DNA of 64,000 bases, taken from assembly GCF_003970675.1 (NCBI RefSeq), contig NZ_CP034562.1, positions 1,116,001 to 1,180,000 of the forward strand. The letters are read 5' to 3'. Origin of the DNA: Flammeovirga pectinis (GTDB lineage Bacteria; Bacteroidota; Bacteroidia; Cytophagales; Flammeovirgaceae). A program made the position numbers and the translations under genes. The notes under the pieces were generated by a model. That model saw only the letters and a list, made by a program, of their open reading frames with translations, made no database searches and was not told the DNA's origin. Shown here piece after piece: positions 4,753 through 20,406 of this stretch. Within the stretch, counting starts at the first letter, position 1, and each line of letters begins with the position of its first letter.

Positions 4753-6531
4753 ATGATCAAAAGAAAGGCCTTTTTGTGTCTATTATTTTGCCTTTTAGGT
4801 ATTTTGTCAAATTCTTTTGCACAAAAATCTACTCCACAACAGAGGGAGAAAGAACAATTAGAAGTTTACAATGAAATCAAAAGTTTAATTGTAGCAGATT
4901 CTATATATAGAGTTTACTTAAGGGAACAAATTGCTCGTTTAGATTCCCTTTCAGGAGCTAAAAAGAAAGTGAAACAGGTTTTCTTGGCAAATGGTATTCC
5001 TGTAGCTCCCTTTAACGATACTTTATTCTATGTACACAGAAGAAAGGCTGTATCAGCTTCAATAAGAGCAAAATCTCTTGAAGATACTTTACGAAAAATT
5101 GCAGATAATACACTTTATCTTATTGATTCTGTAGATCTTGAACCATTTGAAAGTACATATAAACTAGTATTTAAAGGGGAAACTATTCATGTTGTGGATA
5201 CTGTTGACGCGAAGTTGGCGCAAATGTCAAAAATAAATTTAGCGAGAGAAAGACAGTATGCAATTAATTTATCTTTACATGAAAAGATAAATTATCAGGG
5301 TAAGTATGCAGGAATGATTGCTTTGATAGGGCTTTTCCTTTTATTGTTCTTTTTTAAAATGATTGGAAAAGGATATCGATTAGCACTCATAAAAGTAGTT
5401 CGTGACAACAATGGATGGTTTAGAAATAAGCGTGTAAAAAATGTAAAAATTCTGACAGAGGAAAATCAAATTAATATAGCTAGATACCTTTTACTAATCA
5501 TTCGATTTGGTTTAATATTTATTCTTATCTCTCTTTATTTACCAATAGTTGGACGGTTTTCTCCACCACTGAGAGATATTTCTGATGAGTTTTTCGGATA
5601 CATTTTTAACCCTTTTATAGATATATTGAAATCATTTATTGAATATACTCCAAATTTATTAAAAATTGGAGTAGTCATTTTTGTTTTTCATTATACAATA
5701 CAATTGGTGAAAACATTTGCAGATGCAATAGCAGATGGACGATTAAAAATACAAGGTTTTTACCCTGATTGGGTGCCACCTACTTTTAAGATTATAAAGT
5801 TTGTGCTTTATACATTTATGGTAATAATGATTTTTCCACTTCTTCCTGGTGCCGAATCTCAAGAATTTAAAGGTATATCTGTGTTTGTCGGTGTTTTATT
5901 GTCTATAGGTTCTACCTCTGTAATTACCAACGCAATAAGCGGAATAGTAATTACCTATATGCGTAGATTCACAATTGGTGATTGGATAAGAATTGGCGAT
6001 ATAATGGGAGAAGTAGTAGAACGCTCACTTTTTGTTACTCGCTTAAAAACATCTAAGAATGAAATTGTTACTATACCAAATAGCAAGATTTCTGAATCTA
6101 ATACTATTAATTATTCTCAGCCAATAAATCGATTTAAATTAATAATTCATACTACTGTTACTATCGGTTATGATGTTCCATGGAGAAAAGTGCATGCTTT
6201 ATTAAAAGAAGCTGCAGAGATTACAGAAGGCTTAATTGCAGGTGAAATTCCTTTTGTATTACAAACTTCATTAGATGATTATTATGTAAGTTATCAATTG
6301 AATGCTTATACAAAACAACCCGAAAAATTAGCACGAATATATTCTCGTTTACATCAAAACATTCAAGATATTTTTGCTAGAGATGAAGTTGAAATCATGT
6401 CGCCACATTACAGGGCAAATAGGGAAGATAATGAGATTACAATCCCTGATTTTAAGCTAATGCATGATGCTCCGAAAGAAGAAAAACCTCCAATGGACAA
6501 TTCTAAAACAGAGAATAAACCTGATCATTAA
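4753..6531 (+). CDS. MscS-family mechanosensitive channel
   Basis: A 592-residue membrane protein that should relieve hypo-osmotic pressure. A signal peptide (cut after NSFAQ, residue 24) leads into a ~150-residue charged periplasmic part and then several membrane helices (about 190-205, 245-270, 300-320, 345-365, 375-400). The MscS core follows: a Gly/Ala-rich pore helix region (VLLSIGSTSVITNAISGIVITYMR) and the beta domain GDWIRIGDIMGEVVERSLFVTRLKT, then PNSKISESNTINYS. An acidic, lysine-rich cytoplasmic tail ends the protein. It is larger than E. coli MscS (about 286) because of the N-terminal periplasmic domain, as in MscK/YbiO-like channels. The substrate-free channel role is family knowledge. 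Confidence 0.9.
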   Translation: MIKRKAFLCLLFCLLGILSNSFAQKSTPQQREKEQLEVYNEIKSLIVADSIYRVYLREQIARLDSLSGAKKKVKQVFLANGIPVAPFNDTLFYVHRRKAVSASIRAKSLEDTLRKIADNTLYLIDSVDLEPFESTYKLVFKGETIHVVDTVDAKLAQMSKINLARERQYAINLSLHEKINYQGKYAGMIALIGLFLLLFFFKMIGKGYRLALIKVVRDNNGWFRNKRVKNVKILTEENQINIARYLLLIIRFGLIFILISLYLPIVGRFSPPLRDISDEFFGYIFNPFIDILKSFIEYTPNLLKIGVVIFVFHYTIQLVKTFADAIADGRLKIQGFYPDWVPPTFKIIKFVLYTFMVIMIFPLLPGAESQEFKGISVFVGVLLSIGSTSVITNAISGIVITYMRRFTIGDWIRIGDIMGEVVERSLFVTRLKTSKNEIVTIPNSKISESNTINYSQPINRFKLIIHTTVTIGYDVPWRKVHALLKEAAEITEGLIAGEIPFVLQTSLDDYYVSYQLNAYTKQPEKLARIYSRLHQNIQDIFARDEVEIMSPHYRANREDNEITIPDFKLMHDAPKEEKPPMDNSKTENKPDH

Positions 6532-6540
6532 AAATTGTAT

Positions 6541-6582
6541 CTTCACAGTTCCATTAGTCACTTAGATAATGGAACTGTGAAG
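6541..6582. terminator. 16-bp perfect hairpin after mscS-like gene
   Basis: CTTCACAGTTCCATTA and its exact complement (6567-6582) lie in the 68 bp before the next gene. No strong T-run follows, so it may be a weak terminator or an mRNA-end stabilising hairpin rather than a full stop. Confidence 0.5.
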
Positions 6583-6599
6583 CTTAATAATAAATAATT

Positions 6600-7568
6600 T
6601 TGCCATTTCAACTTATCTTAAAAATAATAATAGCACTTTATAAGCAGAAGAAGTTTATAGCGAAATATCTTACTTCAGATTTAATTACTTTTCGAAAAAG
6701 TGATACATCTTTATCTGAAAAAGATTTTATTAAAATAAAAAGTTATTACGGATTAGCAATAACGGGAATATTAGGTACTTCTATTTGTTTACTTCGGGGT
6801 AAAAAAATGTCTTTTAAGGAAAGGTATACAAGTACTTTCCAAGCGAGTATTACAGGACTTGTAGACGACTACTATGATGAACAGGGAATGACAGAAGAAA
6901 GAATGCAAACTTTCTTTCTTCAACCAAAAAATGTGATTCCTAAAAATGATGCAGAACGTTTGGGTATAAATTTATACCTCAAGAGTTTGAAGTATATATC
7001 AAATTTTTCTGAATTAGAACCTTACTTGACAGATGTCAATAAAGCACAGGCCGAAAGTGTAGCACAATACAATTCAGAAATAACATTTTCAACATTAAAG
7101 GCTCTTACTTTGTTTAAAGGTGGAAGCTCATTTTCATATTTTAGAACAGCTTATAAAAATAAGGTCCTTGATAAAGAAGCGGAAATGTTTTATTTATTAG
7201 GAGGGATTACGCAGTTAGGAAATGATATTTTCGACGTTTATAAAGATAGAGAAAACAATGTAAGTACTTTATTAACTACTTGTACCTCTATAAATGATGT
7301 GAAAGATATTTTTACATTATGGCTAACTCAAATAAAAGCTCTTTTATTGGGATTGGGTTACCCTGATAAGAATAAAGAAGAATTTTGGAACTTATATTAT
7401 TTAGGAGTATTCTCAAGGTGTTTCACTTGTTTAGAGCAACTTGAAAAATTAGAAATAGAAAATCAGTTTAAGTTGTCTCAATATACTCGCAAAGAATTAA
7501 TTTGTGATTTGGAAAAATGGAGTACTTTTAAAAGGGCACTTTGTTTTTACAAAGAAGGGAGATTATAA
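6600..7568 (+). CDS. Class I isoprenoid (terpene) synthase-like enzyme
   Basis: A 322-residue all-helical soluble protein. VDDYYDE at 88-94 fits the first Asp-rich motif (DDxxDE) that binds Mg-diphosphate in class I prenyl and terpene synthases. GNDIFDVYKDRE at 207-218 has the place and shape of the second metal motif (NDxxSxxxE), with Asp at the Ser and Glu positions. The sequence is otherwise far from IspA-type prenyltransferases, so the substrate is unknown. No ATG exists near the start: the frame opens at a stop at 6591 and the first usable codon is TTG at 6600, while the first ATG (6807) would delete 69 residues of helix. It follows the channel gene by 68 bp. Confidence 0.6.
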   Translation: MPFQLILKIIIALYKQKKFIAKYLTSDLITFRKSDTSLSEKDFIKIKSYYGLAITGILGTSICLLRGKKMSFKERYTSTFQASITGLVDDYYDEQGMTEERMQTFFLQPKNVIPKNDAERLGINLYLKSLKYISNFSELEPYLTDVNKAQAESVAQYNSEITFSTLKALTLFKGGSSFSYFRTAYKNKVLDKEAEMFYLLGGITQLGNDIFDVYKDRENNVSTLLTTCTSINDVKDIFTLWLTQIKALLLGLGYPDKNKEEFWNLYYLGVFSRCFTCLEQLEKLEIENQFKLSQYTRKELICDLEKWSTFKRALCFYKEGRL

Positions 7569-7585
7569 ATTGCTAGAGAAAAATA

Positions 7586-7620
7586 GCTAACAAGGCTATT
7601 TCAAGAATTGCCTTGTTAGC
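7586..7620. terminator. Hairpin between convergent genes
   Basis: GCTAACAAGGC pairs perfectly with GCCTTGTTAGC (7610-7620). It sits between the isoprenoid-enzyme stop and the stop of the reverse small membrane gene. No clear T-run is present. Confidence 0.5.
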
Positions 7621-7631
7621 GGAGTGAAGAT

Positions 7632-7805
7632 TTAGCTATTCTTTATTAAAGAGTAACTACCTAATGTTACAATAGAAATAATTACAACGGTAATCGAAGC
7701 GTAGATCATACCTACTAAAGAGTCCGCGTGAATTGTAGAATCAATTACTTTGATATCTAAAATTAGAAGTGCGACAGGTACGATAACTAATAATAACTTT
7801 TTCAT
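7632..7805 (-). CDS. Small two-helix membrane protein, unknown
   Basis: An ORF of 57 residues, too short for most gene callers. It starts MKKLLLVIVPVALLILDIKV (a first membrane segment or signal anchor, residues 3-18) and has a second hydrophobic segment, MIYASITVVIISIVTLGSYS (33-52). The regular frame with lysines only at the N-terminus and near the C-terminus looks like a real membrane miniprotein. It lies between two convergent or divergent units and has its own 190-bp upstream region. It resembles the protein at 859-1038 in layout. Function unknown. Confidence 0.5.
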   Translation of the reverse strand: MKKLLLVIVPVALLILDIKVIDSTIHADSLVGMIYASITVVIISIVTLGSYSLIKNS

Positions 7806-7860
7806 TTTACTATCTGTTTGTTTATAACTTAATTTAATGATTTTAAGTGGGTTAATGAAC

Positions 7861-7889: not shown

Positions 7890-7999
7890 TAATACTTACT
7901 TGTAGAAAACTTGATTCTTGATTTAGTAAAGAATAAATTCGGGTAAATTCGACTTTTATCGAAAATTCTGAAAGAAATCATACTATAAATATAGATCCT

Positions 8000-8974
8000 A
8001 TGTTAACTAGAAGACCACGTCGTAATAGAAAATCTGTAGGTGTTCGCCAAATGGTACAAGAGACACAGCTAACAGTAGATGACTTTATTTTTCCTTTGTT
8101 TCTAATTGAAGGAGAAAATAAGAAAGAAGAGGTAAGTTCAATGCCAGGTATTTACAGGTACACATTGGATCTTTTGTTAGAAGAAGTAGGAGAGTGTGTT
8201 GCATTGGGTATTAATTCCTATTGTATTTTTCCATCATTAGGAGAAGATAAAAAAGATAGTTTAGCCACTGAAGGGAGCAATCCAGAAGGTATTTACCAAA
8301 TTGCATTGCGTAGCATTAAGGAAAAATATCCTGATACTGTTGTAATGACAGATGTTGCCATGGATCCATACAGTTCTGATGGACATGATGGCATTGTGAA
8401 AGAGGGTAAAATTGTAAACGATGAAACTTTAGAAGTTTTGGGCAAAATGGCATTAGCTCAGGCTAAAGCTGGTGCGGATATCATTGGACCTTCTGATATG
8501 ATGGATGGTAGAATTGGGTATATTAGAGATGTACTTGATGATAATGGATATACGGATGTATCTATCATGTCTTATTCTGCAAAATATGCGTCCGCATTCT
8601 ATGGTCCGTTTAGAGATGCATTAGATTCTGCGCCAAAATTTGGAGATAAAAAGACCTACCAAATGGATCCAGCTAATGTGAAAGAAGCATTGATTGAAGC
8701 AGAATTGGATTATGTTGAAGGTGCAGATTTCTTAATGGTAAAACCAGCTTTATCTTATTTAGATGTTATTAAAACATTAGCAGATAATTTTGATGTGCCG
8801 ATTACTGCTTACAACGTATCTGGTGAGTATGCAATGTTAAAGGCCGCTGCTCAGAACGGTTGGTTAGAAAATGATAAGACAATGTTAGAAATGCTTTTGA
8901 GTATTAAACGTGCTGGCGCGAGTGCTATCCTAACGTATTTTGCAAAAGAAGCAGCAGTTTTATTGAATAAGTAA
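8000..8974 (+). CDS. hemB: Delta-aminolevulinic acid dehydratase (porphobilinogen synthase)
   Basis: Joins two 5-aminolevulinate molecules into porphobilinogen, the second step of tetrapyrrole synthesis, in the cytosol. It has 324 residues, the usual length. The two Schiff-base lysines are K195 (SYSAKYASAFYGPFRDA) and K248 (FLMVKPA). The active-site metal loop reads DVAMDPYSSDGHDG (118-131): the three cysteines of Zn enzymes are absent and Asp/Ala take their place, as in the Mg/K-dependent Pseudomonas type. No other heme gene is nearby. It has its own promoter and terminator. Confidence 0.97.
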   Translation: MLTRRPRRNRKSVGVRQMVQETQLTVDDFIFPLFLIEGENKKEEVSSMPGIYRYTLDLLLEEVGECVALGINSYCIFPSLGEDKKDSLATEGSNPEGIYQIALRSIKEKYPDTVVMTDVAMDPYSSDGHDGIVKEGKIVNDETLEVLGKMALAQAKAGADIIGPSDMMDGRIGYIRDVLDDNGYTDVSIMSYSAKYASAFYGPFRDALDSAPKFGDKKTYQMDPANVKEALIEAELDYVEGADFLMVKPALSYLDVIKTLADNFDVPITAYNVSGEYAMLKAAAQNGWLENDKTMLEMLLSIKRAGASAILTYFAKEAAVLLNK

Positions 8975-18714: not shown

Positions 18715-20406
18715 ATGAGAAAGTTTCCAATTGGCCTATCAGATTTTAAAGAAGTAATACAAGGAGATTATTACTATGTTGATAAATCTTTATTTATTGA
18801 AGAAATTATTGATAGTAGTAGCAAATCAATGCTTATTCCAAGACCTAGACGTTTTGGGAAAACGATCAATATGTCAATGTTGAAGGCTTTTTTTGATAGT
18901 AACGAAACTAATGAGGAACTTTTTGAAGGACTAAAAATCAAGAAATCAGAAACTTGGCAACATCAAGGGAGGTGTCCTGTAATTTTTCTTACTTTTAAGG
19001 ATATAAAAGAGGATTCTTTTCTAGAAGCAATAAAGAAAATAGCAGATTTAATTAAAGAGTATATTAAGACTTGTGATCTTACTTATATTAAATCTAGGAT
19101 TGATGTGGACGACCAAAATTATATTGATCAGTTTTTTACTGGGGAAATCTCGAAAGGGGAAATTTCATTTTTCTTGAAGCATTTTTCTACAATTTTAGAG
19201 AAAGTATACAACCAAAAAGTGGTTATCCTTATTGATGAATACGACTCTTGTATAATTAAAGCATGGACAGAAGGATACCATAAAGAAATGGTTGATTTTA
19301 TGCGTAATTTCCTTTCTGGTGGCTATAAAGACAATACTTCTTTGTATAAAGGAATTATTACAGGAATTCTAAGAGTAGCGAAAGAAAGTATTTTTTCTGG
19401 GTTAAATAATCTTGATATTTTTACGGTATTAGAATTTAGTGTAGCCGATAAGTTTGGTCTTACGGAAAGTGAGGTGCAACAGTTGTTAGAAGATGCCAAT
19501 ATTCAAACATCATTTGCTGATGTAAAAAAGTGGTACAATGGGTATACCATCGGTTTACAAACAGGTATGTATAATCCATGGTCAATTTTAAATTTTGCAG
19601 ATAAACCTGCCCAGGGTTTAAAACCGTATTGGGTGAATACATCCGCTAATGAATTGATAGAAGAACTACTCACTAACGCTAGTGCTGATCTTGAAAAGAA
19701 ACTTACCAGGTTTATTGATGGACAAGTGATGACTTGTGAGATTGAGGAGACGACTATCTTTAAAGATTTGGATGTCGGACATGAAAAAACGGTATTGGGC
19801 TTATTACTTTTTAATGGTTATTTAACTGCAGTCTCAAGAAACCAACAAGATAACGGCTTTTTTGAATATGGTTTAAAAATACCTAACAAGGAGGTGAACA
19901 TGGTTTATAAGCAGATGTTGGAACGCCTTCTTAATAAAGCAAACAACGTAAATAGCAGTGAGATTTTATCTTCTTTATTAGAGCAAGATGCAGATGGTTT
20001 TGAGTACTACCTCTCGCAATACTTGATGAATGCTTTTAGTTATAATGATTTCAATATGAAAAGCTTTCCCGAAAGGGTCTACCATGCGTTTGTATTGGGA
20101 TTAATGGCACATCTTTCAAATCAGTTTATTGTAAAATCTAATCCAGAAACAGGACTTGGTCGTGCAGGTTTATTGATTTATCCTAAAGGTAACAATGATA
20201 TGCGTGGTTGGGTTTTAGAGTTTAAAGCAAAAAAGCCTTTCCATAAAAATAGTTTAGAGGAGATAGCCCAAGAGGCAATAAATCAAATTCATACTTCCCA
20301 ATATATTACTACTCTAAAAGAATTAGGAAAGACAAAAATTATGCTTGTGGGGGTTGCTTTTGATGGTAAAGAAGTGAGTTGTGCAATTGAAAGGAATGTT
20401 TTTTAG
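18715..20406 (+). CDS. DUF1703 AAA-ATPase/PD-(D/E)XK nuclease protein
   Basis: 563 residues, full length. MRKFPIGLSDFKEVIQGDYYYVDKS is the family N-terminus. RPRRFGKT (43-50) is the divergent Walker A and VVILIDEYD (169-177) the Walker B of the AAA-ATPase-like domain (PF09820). The C-terminal PDDEXK_9 domain has GRAGLLIYP and WVLEFKAKK, giving the E-x-K of a nuclease core. Such genes are very common in Bacteroidota, often in many copies. Their biological role is not established; defence or mobile-element housekeeping is conjecture. It is flanked by repeats on both sides and lies opposite to the polysaccharide genes. Confidence 0.88.
   Translation: MRKFPIGLSDFKEVIQGDYYYVDKSLFIEEIIDSSSKSMLIPRPRRFGKTINMSMLKAFFDSNETNEELFEGLKIKKSETWQHQGRCPVIFLTFKDIKEDSFLEAIKKIADLIKEYIKTCDLTYIKSRIDVDDQNYIDQFFTGEISKGEISFFLKHFSTILEKVYNQKVVILIDEYDSCIIKAWTEGYHKEMVDFMRNFLSGGYKDNTSLYKGIITGILRVAKESIFSGLNNLDIFTVLEFSVADKFGLTESEVQQLLEDANIQTSFADVKKWYNGYTIGLQTGMYNPWSILNFADKPAQGLKPYWVNTSANELIEELLTNASADLEKKLTRFIDGQVMTCEIEETTIFKDLDVGHEKTVLGLLLFNGYLTAVSRNQQDNGFFEYGLKIPNKEVNMVYKQMLERLLNKANNVNSSEILSSLLEQDADGFEYYLSQYLMNAFSYNDFNMKSFPERVYHAFVLGLMAHLSNQFIVKSNPETGLGRAGLLIYPKGNNDMRGWVLEFKAKKPFHKNSLEEIAQEAINQIHTSQYITTLKELGKTKIMLVGVAFDGKEVSCAIERNVF

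Follow-up and report, generated by a model that had tools for sequence, protein, structure and literature searches.

A predicted class I isoprenoid synthase family of Flammeovirga related to trans-prenyl-diphosphate synthases

A stretch of 64,000 nucleotides of the Flammeovirga pectinis genome (hereafter the window) contains, at positions 6600–7568 of the + strand, an open frame of 322 amino acids that opens with TTG and whose product is very probably some class I isoprenoid synthase. Within that class, the reading we lean towards is that of a terpene synthase (a diphosphate lyase or cyclase) whose substrate would be a prenyl diphosphate, for instance FPP or GGPP. This is supported by the predicted fold, the invariance of the putative metal-site residues, kinship with trans-prenyl-diphosphate synthases, the missing hallmarks of an isopentenyl diphosphate (IPP) site, the presence in the genome of two synthases that could supply the substrate, and the dN/dS ratios between congeners.

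The open frame and its predicted fold

The frame had originally been picked out as a gene with a TTG start, and was recovered as such on the + strand; its status as a gene is supported by the open frame, homologues, purifying selection and the fold. TTG is the only ATG, GTG or TTG codon in frame before residue 70, and a sister genome (G006, 72% identical protein) has TTG at the same position. In three relatives of 50–53% identity the corresponding codon is a TTA, read as Leu and followed by Pro, that lies downstream of an ATG or GTG of their own, so that the true start is unproven and TTG is a plausible candidate for it. The F. pacifica homologue (L057) has an ATG of its own. The codon may be a former Leu codon turned start, or the real start may be a rarer codon slightly upstream; the TTG adds nothing to the case for an isoprenoid synthase. 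Ratios of dN/dS were 0.148, 0.132, 0.041 and 0.107 in four of the six pairs of congeners, and are rough, dS being high in two of these four; for the remaining two pairs no dS was obtained. The frame is a working gene under purifying selection.

Searches of Pfam (E ≤ 1) and NCBIfam (E ≤ 10) gave no match for the 322-residue protein. Its structure was predicted with AlphaFold2 from 14 aligned sequences (pLDDT 91.2, pTM 0.90) and from 52 (pLDDT 94.9, pTM 0.92), the latter giving a confident helical model. For both models, all 50 VIA-align matches listed were class I isoprenoid synthases by title, among them two of SVS_A2 type, which we take to be terpene synthases. The best of those listed were chains of MoeN5 (Z 18.2 and 18.0 for the two models); the class IB terpene synthase 6loo scored 17.7, the diterpene synthase Sat1646 17.4–17.6, prenyl synthases about 15.5–17, and epi-isozizaene and plant terpene synthases about 15.5–16.6. 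At rank 50 the Z value was still 15.5 and 15.4, to be compared with helical models devoid of a clear match, for which the best Z is about 14 and that of rank 50 about 6 (up to 13). VIA-align re-aligns only the candidates proposed by Foldseek, whose own top row was in both runs the C30 dehydrosqualene synthase CrtM (3ae0; E 2.9e-3 and 3.4e-3, probability 1.00), no match at E ≤ 0.001 being found in either run.

In class I synthases the two metal motifs sit at characteristic ends of helices. In the AlphaFold2 model, DDxxD lies at the C-terminal end of helix 72–93, and NDxxDxxxD spans the last part of helix 191–211 and the break into helix 213–218, which are positions of this kind. A new terpenoid or prenyl product, originally suggested as a possibility, would fit this picture. 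The original prediction of a class I synthase fold was supported: a fold devoid of the metal-binding helices of the class was sought in the two AlphaFold2 models and not found, motif placement being read from helix boundaries rather than from coordinates. Because Z values within one unit are ties, the modelled fold does not choose between prenyl transfer and terpene synthesis.

Conserved residues and kinship with trans-prenyl-diphosphate synthases

Conservation was assessed in two alignments. The 20 rows of A2 were drawn from the 25 sequences found in genomes of the order through similarity to the whole protein or the whole profile, motifs playing no part; the near-duplicate or damaged sequences L009, L010, L051, L052 and L055 were excluded. 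A4 combines these 20 rows with 32 of the 80 loci kept from a pattern scan, to a total of 52 rows; the 32 were retrieved through the peptides LICDMEK and Q[LF][GSL]NDIFD, so that the second and C-terminal motifs are partly selected for in them.

The first Asp-rich motif is DDYYDE (residues 89–94; 6864–6881, + strand), with D89 and D93 present in 52/52 rows of A4 and D90 in 49/52. The second metal motif, Q205xxN208D209xxD212xxxD216 (7212–7247, + strand), has its Gln and its three Asp in all 52 rows, position 208 being Asn in 44 and Asp in 8. The sequence GNDIFDVYKDRE begins at residue 207 of the protein, and the distance of 114 residues from DDYYDE that had been claimed for it agrees with a count from residue 94 to the Asn of NDIFD (208). 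A third conserved element, K173-G174-G175 (7116–7124, + strand), contains a Lys that profile alignments pair with the one conserved in trans-prenyl synthases. Eight positions (D89, D93, K173, G201, Q205, D209, D212 and D216) were invariant across the 52 members; E74 was found in 50, Q150 in 49, Q156 in 50 and T223 in 51 of them. Expressed as patterns, DxxxD and QxxxDxxDxxxD occurred in every member and DDxxD in 49. Since the same eight positions are invariant in the 20/20 rows of A2, found without motif selection, the conservation of both Asp motifs exceeds that expected by chance. By contrast, R297, C302 and D303 of the C-terminal motif RKELICDLEK (residues 297–306; 7488–7517, + strand) are present in 46/52 rows of A4 but in only 14/20 of A2, and the motif therefore marks the main branch and not the family as a whole.

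The nearest family by sequence appears to be that of the trans-prenyl-diphosphate synthases (PF00348). Profile–profile comparison with 30 trans-prenyl synthases of the order gave E 8e-5 (probability 61%), the better match of the two families compared, versus E 0.078 with 30 squalene/phytoene-type proteins. Among PDB sequences the family profile retrieved the geranyltranstransferase 1rtr (E 0.0013). At E ≤ 0.01, PF00348 was matched by 8 of the 52 members (lowest E 4.4e-6); the window protein did not match it at E ≤ 1. Single members matched Terpene_synth_C (E 0.0096) and NCBIfam HpnD (E 0.0023). The F. pectinis genome encodes two trans-prenyl synthases, one of which is the only other match of the family profile in it at E ≤ 10 (E 0.04). 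Besides fold, DDxxD and the aligned Lys, the family shares with these enzymes a second Asp motif that pairs with theirs in the profile alignments, whereas the form of this motif (QxxNDxxDxxxD) and the spacing of the two motifs, 117–126 residues in members and 130–135 in trans-prenyl controls, set it apart. A further difference concerns the residues that hold IPP in prenyl synthases, namely a GKxxR preceding the first motif and an RR following it; these were present in 30/30 trans-prenyl controls and in 0/52 members. We read the family as a relative of prenyl synthases in which the allylic diphosphate site would have survived and the IPP site disappeared, and prenyl synthases may have been its ancestors.

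Candidate catalytic roles

Because the hallmarks of the IPP site are absent from all 52 members, the protein is predicted to ionise an allylic diphosphate without elongating it with IPP. Under the terpene synthase reading, D89, D90 and D93 together with N208, D209, D212 and D216 would bind Mg2+ ions, and these in turn the diphosphate of an allylic substrate (e.g. FPP or GGPP) supplied by the trans-prenyl-diphosphate synthases of the cell; the leaving diphosphate would be clamped by K173, perhaps also by the C-terminal segment containing R297 and D303, and the resulting carbocation would be quenched within the helical barrel to yield a linear or cyclic terpene. We infer catalysis as such, metal binding, the nature of the substrate, the functions given to K173 and R297, and a terpene product rather than a prenylated acceptor. 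With canonical bacterial class I terpene synthases (PF19086) the family would thus share the expected chemistry, in addition to the fold and DDxxD. Unlike them, the window protein does not match PF19086, and the NSE/DTE triad of canonical enzymes is lacking to the extent that the NSE pattern occurs in 0/52 members, residues 212 and 216 being Asp in all. The lack of the triad counts against a terpene synthase, as do the modest Foldseek E-values, the tie in fold with MoeN5, which is a transferase, and the failure to find a terpene-tailoring gene among the 30 representative neighbours annotated.

MoeN5, the head-to-middle prenyltransferase of moenomycin biosynthesis, provides the model for the leading alternative, in which the ionised allylic chain goes to a non-IPP acceptor, for example a lipid, glycolipid or small molecule. 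We consider this unlikely, albeit the most credible of the alternatives. MoeN5 chains head the VIA-align matches listed in both runs, superposing over 246–247 residues with an rmsd of 3.4–3.5 Å, and the accessible text of PMC7839719 describes an enzyme with DDXXD and DXXXD motifs that uses a non-IPP acceptor, which parallels the two Asp motifs and the missing IPP hallmarks of the present family. However, identity over the structural alignment is 10–11%, the lead of MoeN5 over terpene synthases is smaller than one Z unit and hence a tie, the 24 sequences matched by the family profile at E ≤ 1 include no MoeN5 entry, and glycolipid assembly genes do not adjoin the gene in the genus neighbourhood.

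A trans-prenyl-diphosphate synthase that elongates with IPP through an altered site would fit the profile evidence, which places that family nearest (profile–profile comparison, PF00348 and 1rtr, as given above). It is nevertheless improbable, given the loss of GKxxR and RR from every member, the shorter motif spacing and the two ordinary trans-prenyl synthases already encoded by the genome. Slightly less probable again is an enzyme of the squalene/phytoene type, joining two prenyl diphosphates head to head. CrtM is the Foldseek top row in both runs, one member matches HpnD, and YisP appears at E 0.086 with the A2 profile; despite that top row, membership is ranked low because of the profile evidence, namely the weak profile–profile match and the lack of PF00494, both as a match of the window protein and among the families listed at E ≤ 0.01 for the 52 members; F. 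pectinis also carries a PF00494 gene of its own (E 1.2e-43). A role as non-catalytic partner to a prenyl synthase, comparable to the small subunit of a two-part enzyme, is very improbable: chain 3krf_D of the heterotetrameric mint GPP synthase matches (Z 17.1), a likeness of fold that says nothing on function, but non-catalytic subunits usually lose the Asp motifs and the Lys, and here both motifs and K173 are invariant in 52/52. Lastly, NDxxDxxxD is a motif of the UbiA intramembrane prenyltransferases, of which the homologues 4tq3 and 4tq6 appear among the Foldseek rows; this identity was rejected on hydropathy, the window protein having no membrane-like segment (GRAVY −0.21, no 19-residue window above 1.6) and no PF01040 match. 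At least one 19-residue window above 1.6 is found in 12 of the 52 family rows.

Terpene synthases that escape sequence models and are recognised by fold have already been described, in classes IB to IF and with members outside gene clusters, in the available portion of PMC11234867, and the present family is a variant of that known kind of finding. Class IB enzymes (BalTS; 5yo8, 6loo) resemble it structurally (Z 17.3–17.7 over 272–285 residues) and are likewise recognisable through fold and not through canonical motifs, according to the same portion of PMC11234867, which gives their motifs as DYLDNLXD and DY(F,L,W)IDXXED; the patterns DYLDN and DY[FLW]ID occurred in 0/52 members. The structure-mined classes ID, IE (SalTPS) and IF (NpsTPS) (Abe et al. 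2024, PMC11234867, as far as its available text goes) share with it the class I fold, the lack of a canonical sequence model and, often, of a gene cluster. The class ID motifs are listed there as D(N/D), ND and RXXKD (PMC11234867); RXXKD is absent from the window protein and present in 1/52 members, and ND is present in 44/52. The IB and ID motifs thus differ from those of the family, in a comparison confined to these two of the published classes. The family was not named in the literature found on terpenes of Flammeovirga and Bacteroidota, on non-canonical terpene synthases and on MoeN5, in a search that mostly lay outside subscription journals and largely outside the full texts of the papers found. 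The NCBI pipeline gives the name 'class 1 isoprenoid biosynthesis enzyme' to some proteins, and the window protein may already bear it.

Distribution and genomic surroundings

One copy of the gene was found in each of the 9/9 Flammeovirga genomes searched, F. pectinis included, and homologues in 14 of 58 genomes of relatives overall, these nine among them. Profile searches gave matches in 25 of 390 genomes at the level of the order and in 12 of 395 at that of the phylum; four of the latter matches are short or partial (G598 short with internal stop codons; G505, G646 and G722 partial), leaving 8/395 as the firm number. A pattern scan of named species genomes (alignment A3) yielded 119 relatives, of which 80 were kept, and a scan of genome contigs with the single protein as query found no relative. 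By title or label, the scan relatives and tree rows belong to Bacteroidota, apart from two metagenome-assembled genomes filed as Chlorobiota and one uncultured bacterium; the scan patterns derive from this branch and say nothing of absence elsewhere. The Flammeovirga rows come together as a single supported group of 14 (99/99) in a tree built from 103 rows (97 of them different), in which deeper branching is weak with long branches. The family is scattered over Bacteroidota. An arrangement of two divergent members adjoining each other (6846–7847 and 7938–8933) was seen in Foetidibacter luteolus (L136).

Terpene mining relies largely on sequence models. PF19086 was matched in 1 of the 58 genomes (that of F. 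pectinis itself), as against 14 for the synthase-like family, and therefore misses an isoprenoid enzyme kept genus-wide. Should the family make a terpene, Flammeovirga and numerous other Bacteroidota would contain an unrecognised terpenoid whose synthesis takes place outside gene clusters; a prenyltransferase would instead point to a prenylated compound not yet known. A prenyl-synthase-like protein with its allylic site kept and its IPP site lost would also clearly illustrate how terpene synthases can arise from chain-length enzymes. The F. pectinis genome also holds a canonical terpene synthase at L210 (G000:C1:4927733-4928287, minus strand; PF19086, E 1.2e-21).

Upstream of the gene a mechanosensitive channel had been predicted, and the frame at 4753–6531 is indeed of MscS type (PF00924, E 1.6e-20); the gene at the 3' side encodes delta-aminolevulinate dehydratase (hemB, PF00490). 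With a few insertions, the order argS, thioesterase, RRM protein, mscS, synthase-like gene, hemB, M61 peptidase, TPR protein is kept in the genus, and mscS is the upstream neighbour in 9/9 genus genomes. The surrounding genes being kept as well, adjacency to mscS is not independent evidence, and a functional tie to the channel was rejected on the conservation around it of the argS, thioesterase, RRM, hemB, M61 and TPR genes. Clustering of neighbours placed mscS within eight genes of the synthase-like gene only at genus loci; outside the genus the gene sits in many unrelated places among the 94 loci examined (6 of them repeating an already counted genome). Thirty representative neighbours were annotated with Pfam, and no P450, prenyl synthase, terpene-tailoring or other terpene gene was found among them.

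A family of SAM methyltransferases (48–91% mutual identity) adjoins the synthase-like gene in 8 of the 94 loci, in two layouts: in the same direction, overlapping or within 40 bases (L095, L101, L106), or convergent (L068, L070, L073, L074, L083). Loci L094 and L100, although related, lack it. Among solved structures it is closest to small-molecule methyltransferases (6uv6, E 9.4e-22), and it also matches, lower down, a geranyl-diphosphate C-methyltransferase (E 1.6e-9). A pathway to a methylated terpenoid is possible where the two genes adjoin. As a partner in F. pectinis the methyltransferase was rejected, its genome containing no match at E ≤ 1e-40. At that threshold it was found in 6 of the 58 relatives, of which only G004 also has the synthase-like family; we therefore treat the pairing as a lead limited to some lineages, the two genes not forming a fixed pair within this order.

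A more far-reaching proposal, improbable when taken as a whole, is that the family constitutes an undescribed class of terpene synthases that would have descended from trans-prenyl synthases through disappearance of the IPP site, and that bears the signature DDxxD, QxxSxxQ, KGG, QxxNDxxDxxxD and, in the main branch, RKxLICDMEK. It would be a core, cluster-free gene in Flammeovirga, scattered over Bacteroidota, and in some lineages would act with the adjoining SAM methyltransferase to make methylated terpenoids that break the C5 rule.

A strong hairpin folds between the mscS stop codon and the synthase-like gene (6541–6582, + strand; MFE −24.8 kcal/mol for 6525–6610, z −5.55, with 0/200 shuffles as good). 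A similar one, with altered letters, folds in the sister genome G006; in G002 the two genes lie 2 bases apart and there is no hairpin. A terminator, an attenuator or a processing site are its candidate roles. Elsewhere in the window, positions 18715–20406 encode an AAA-ATPase_like/PDDEXK_9 protein (PF09820, PF08011).
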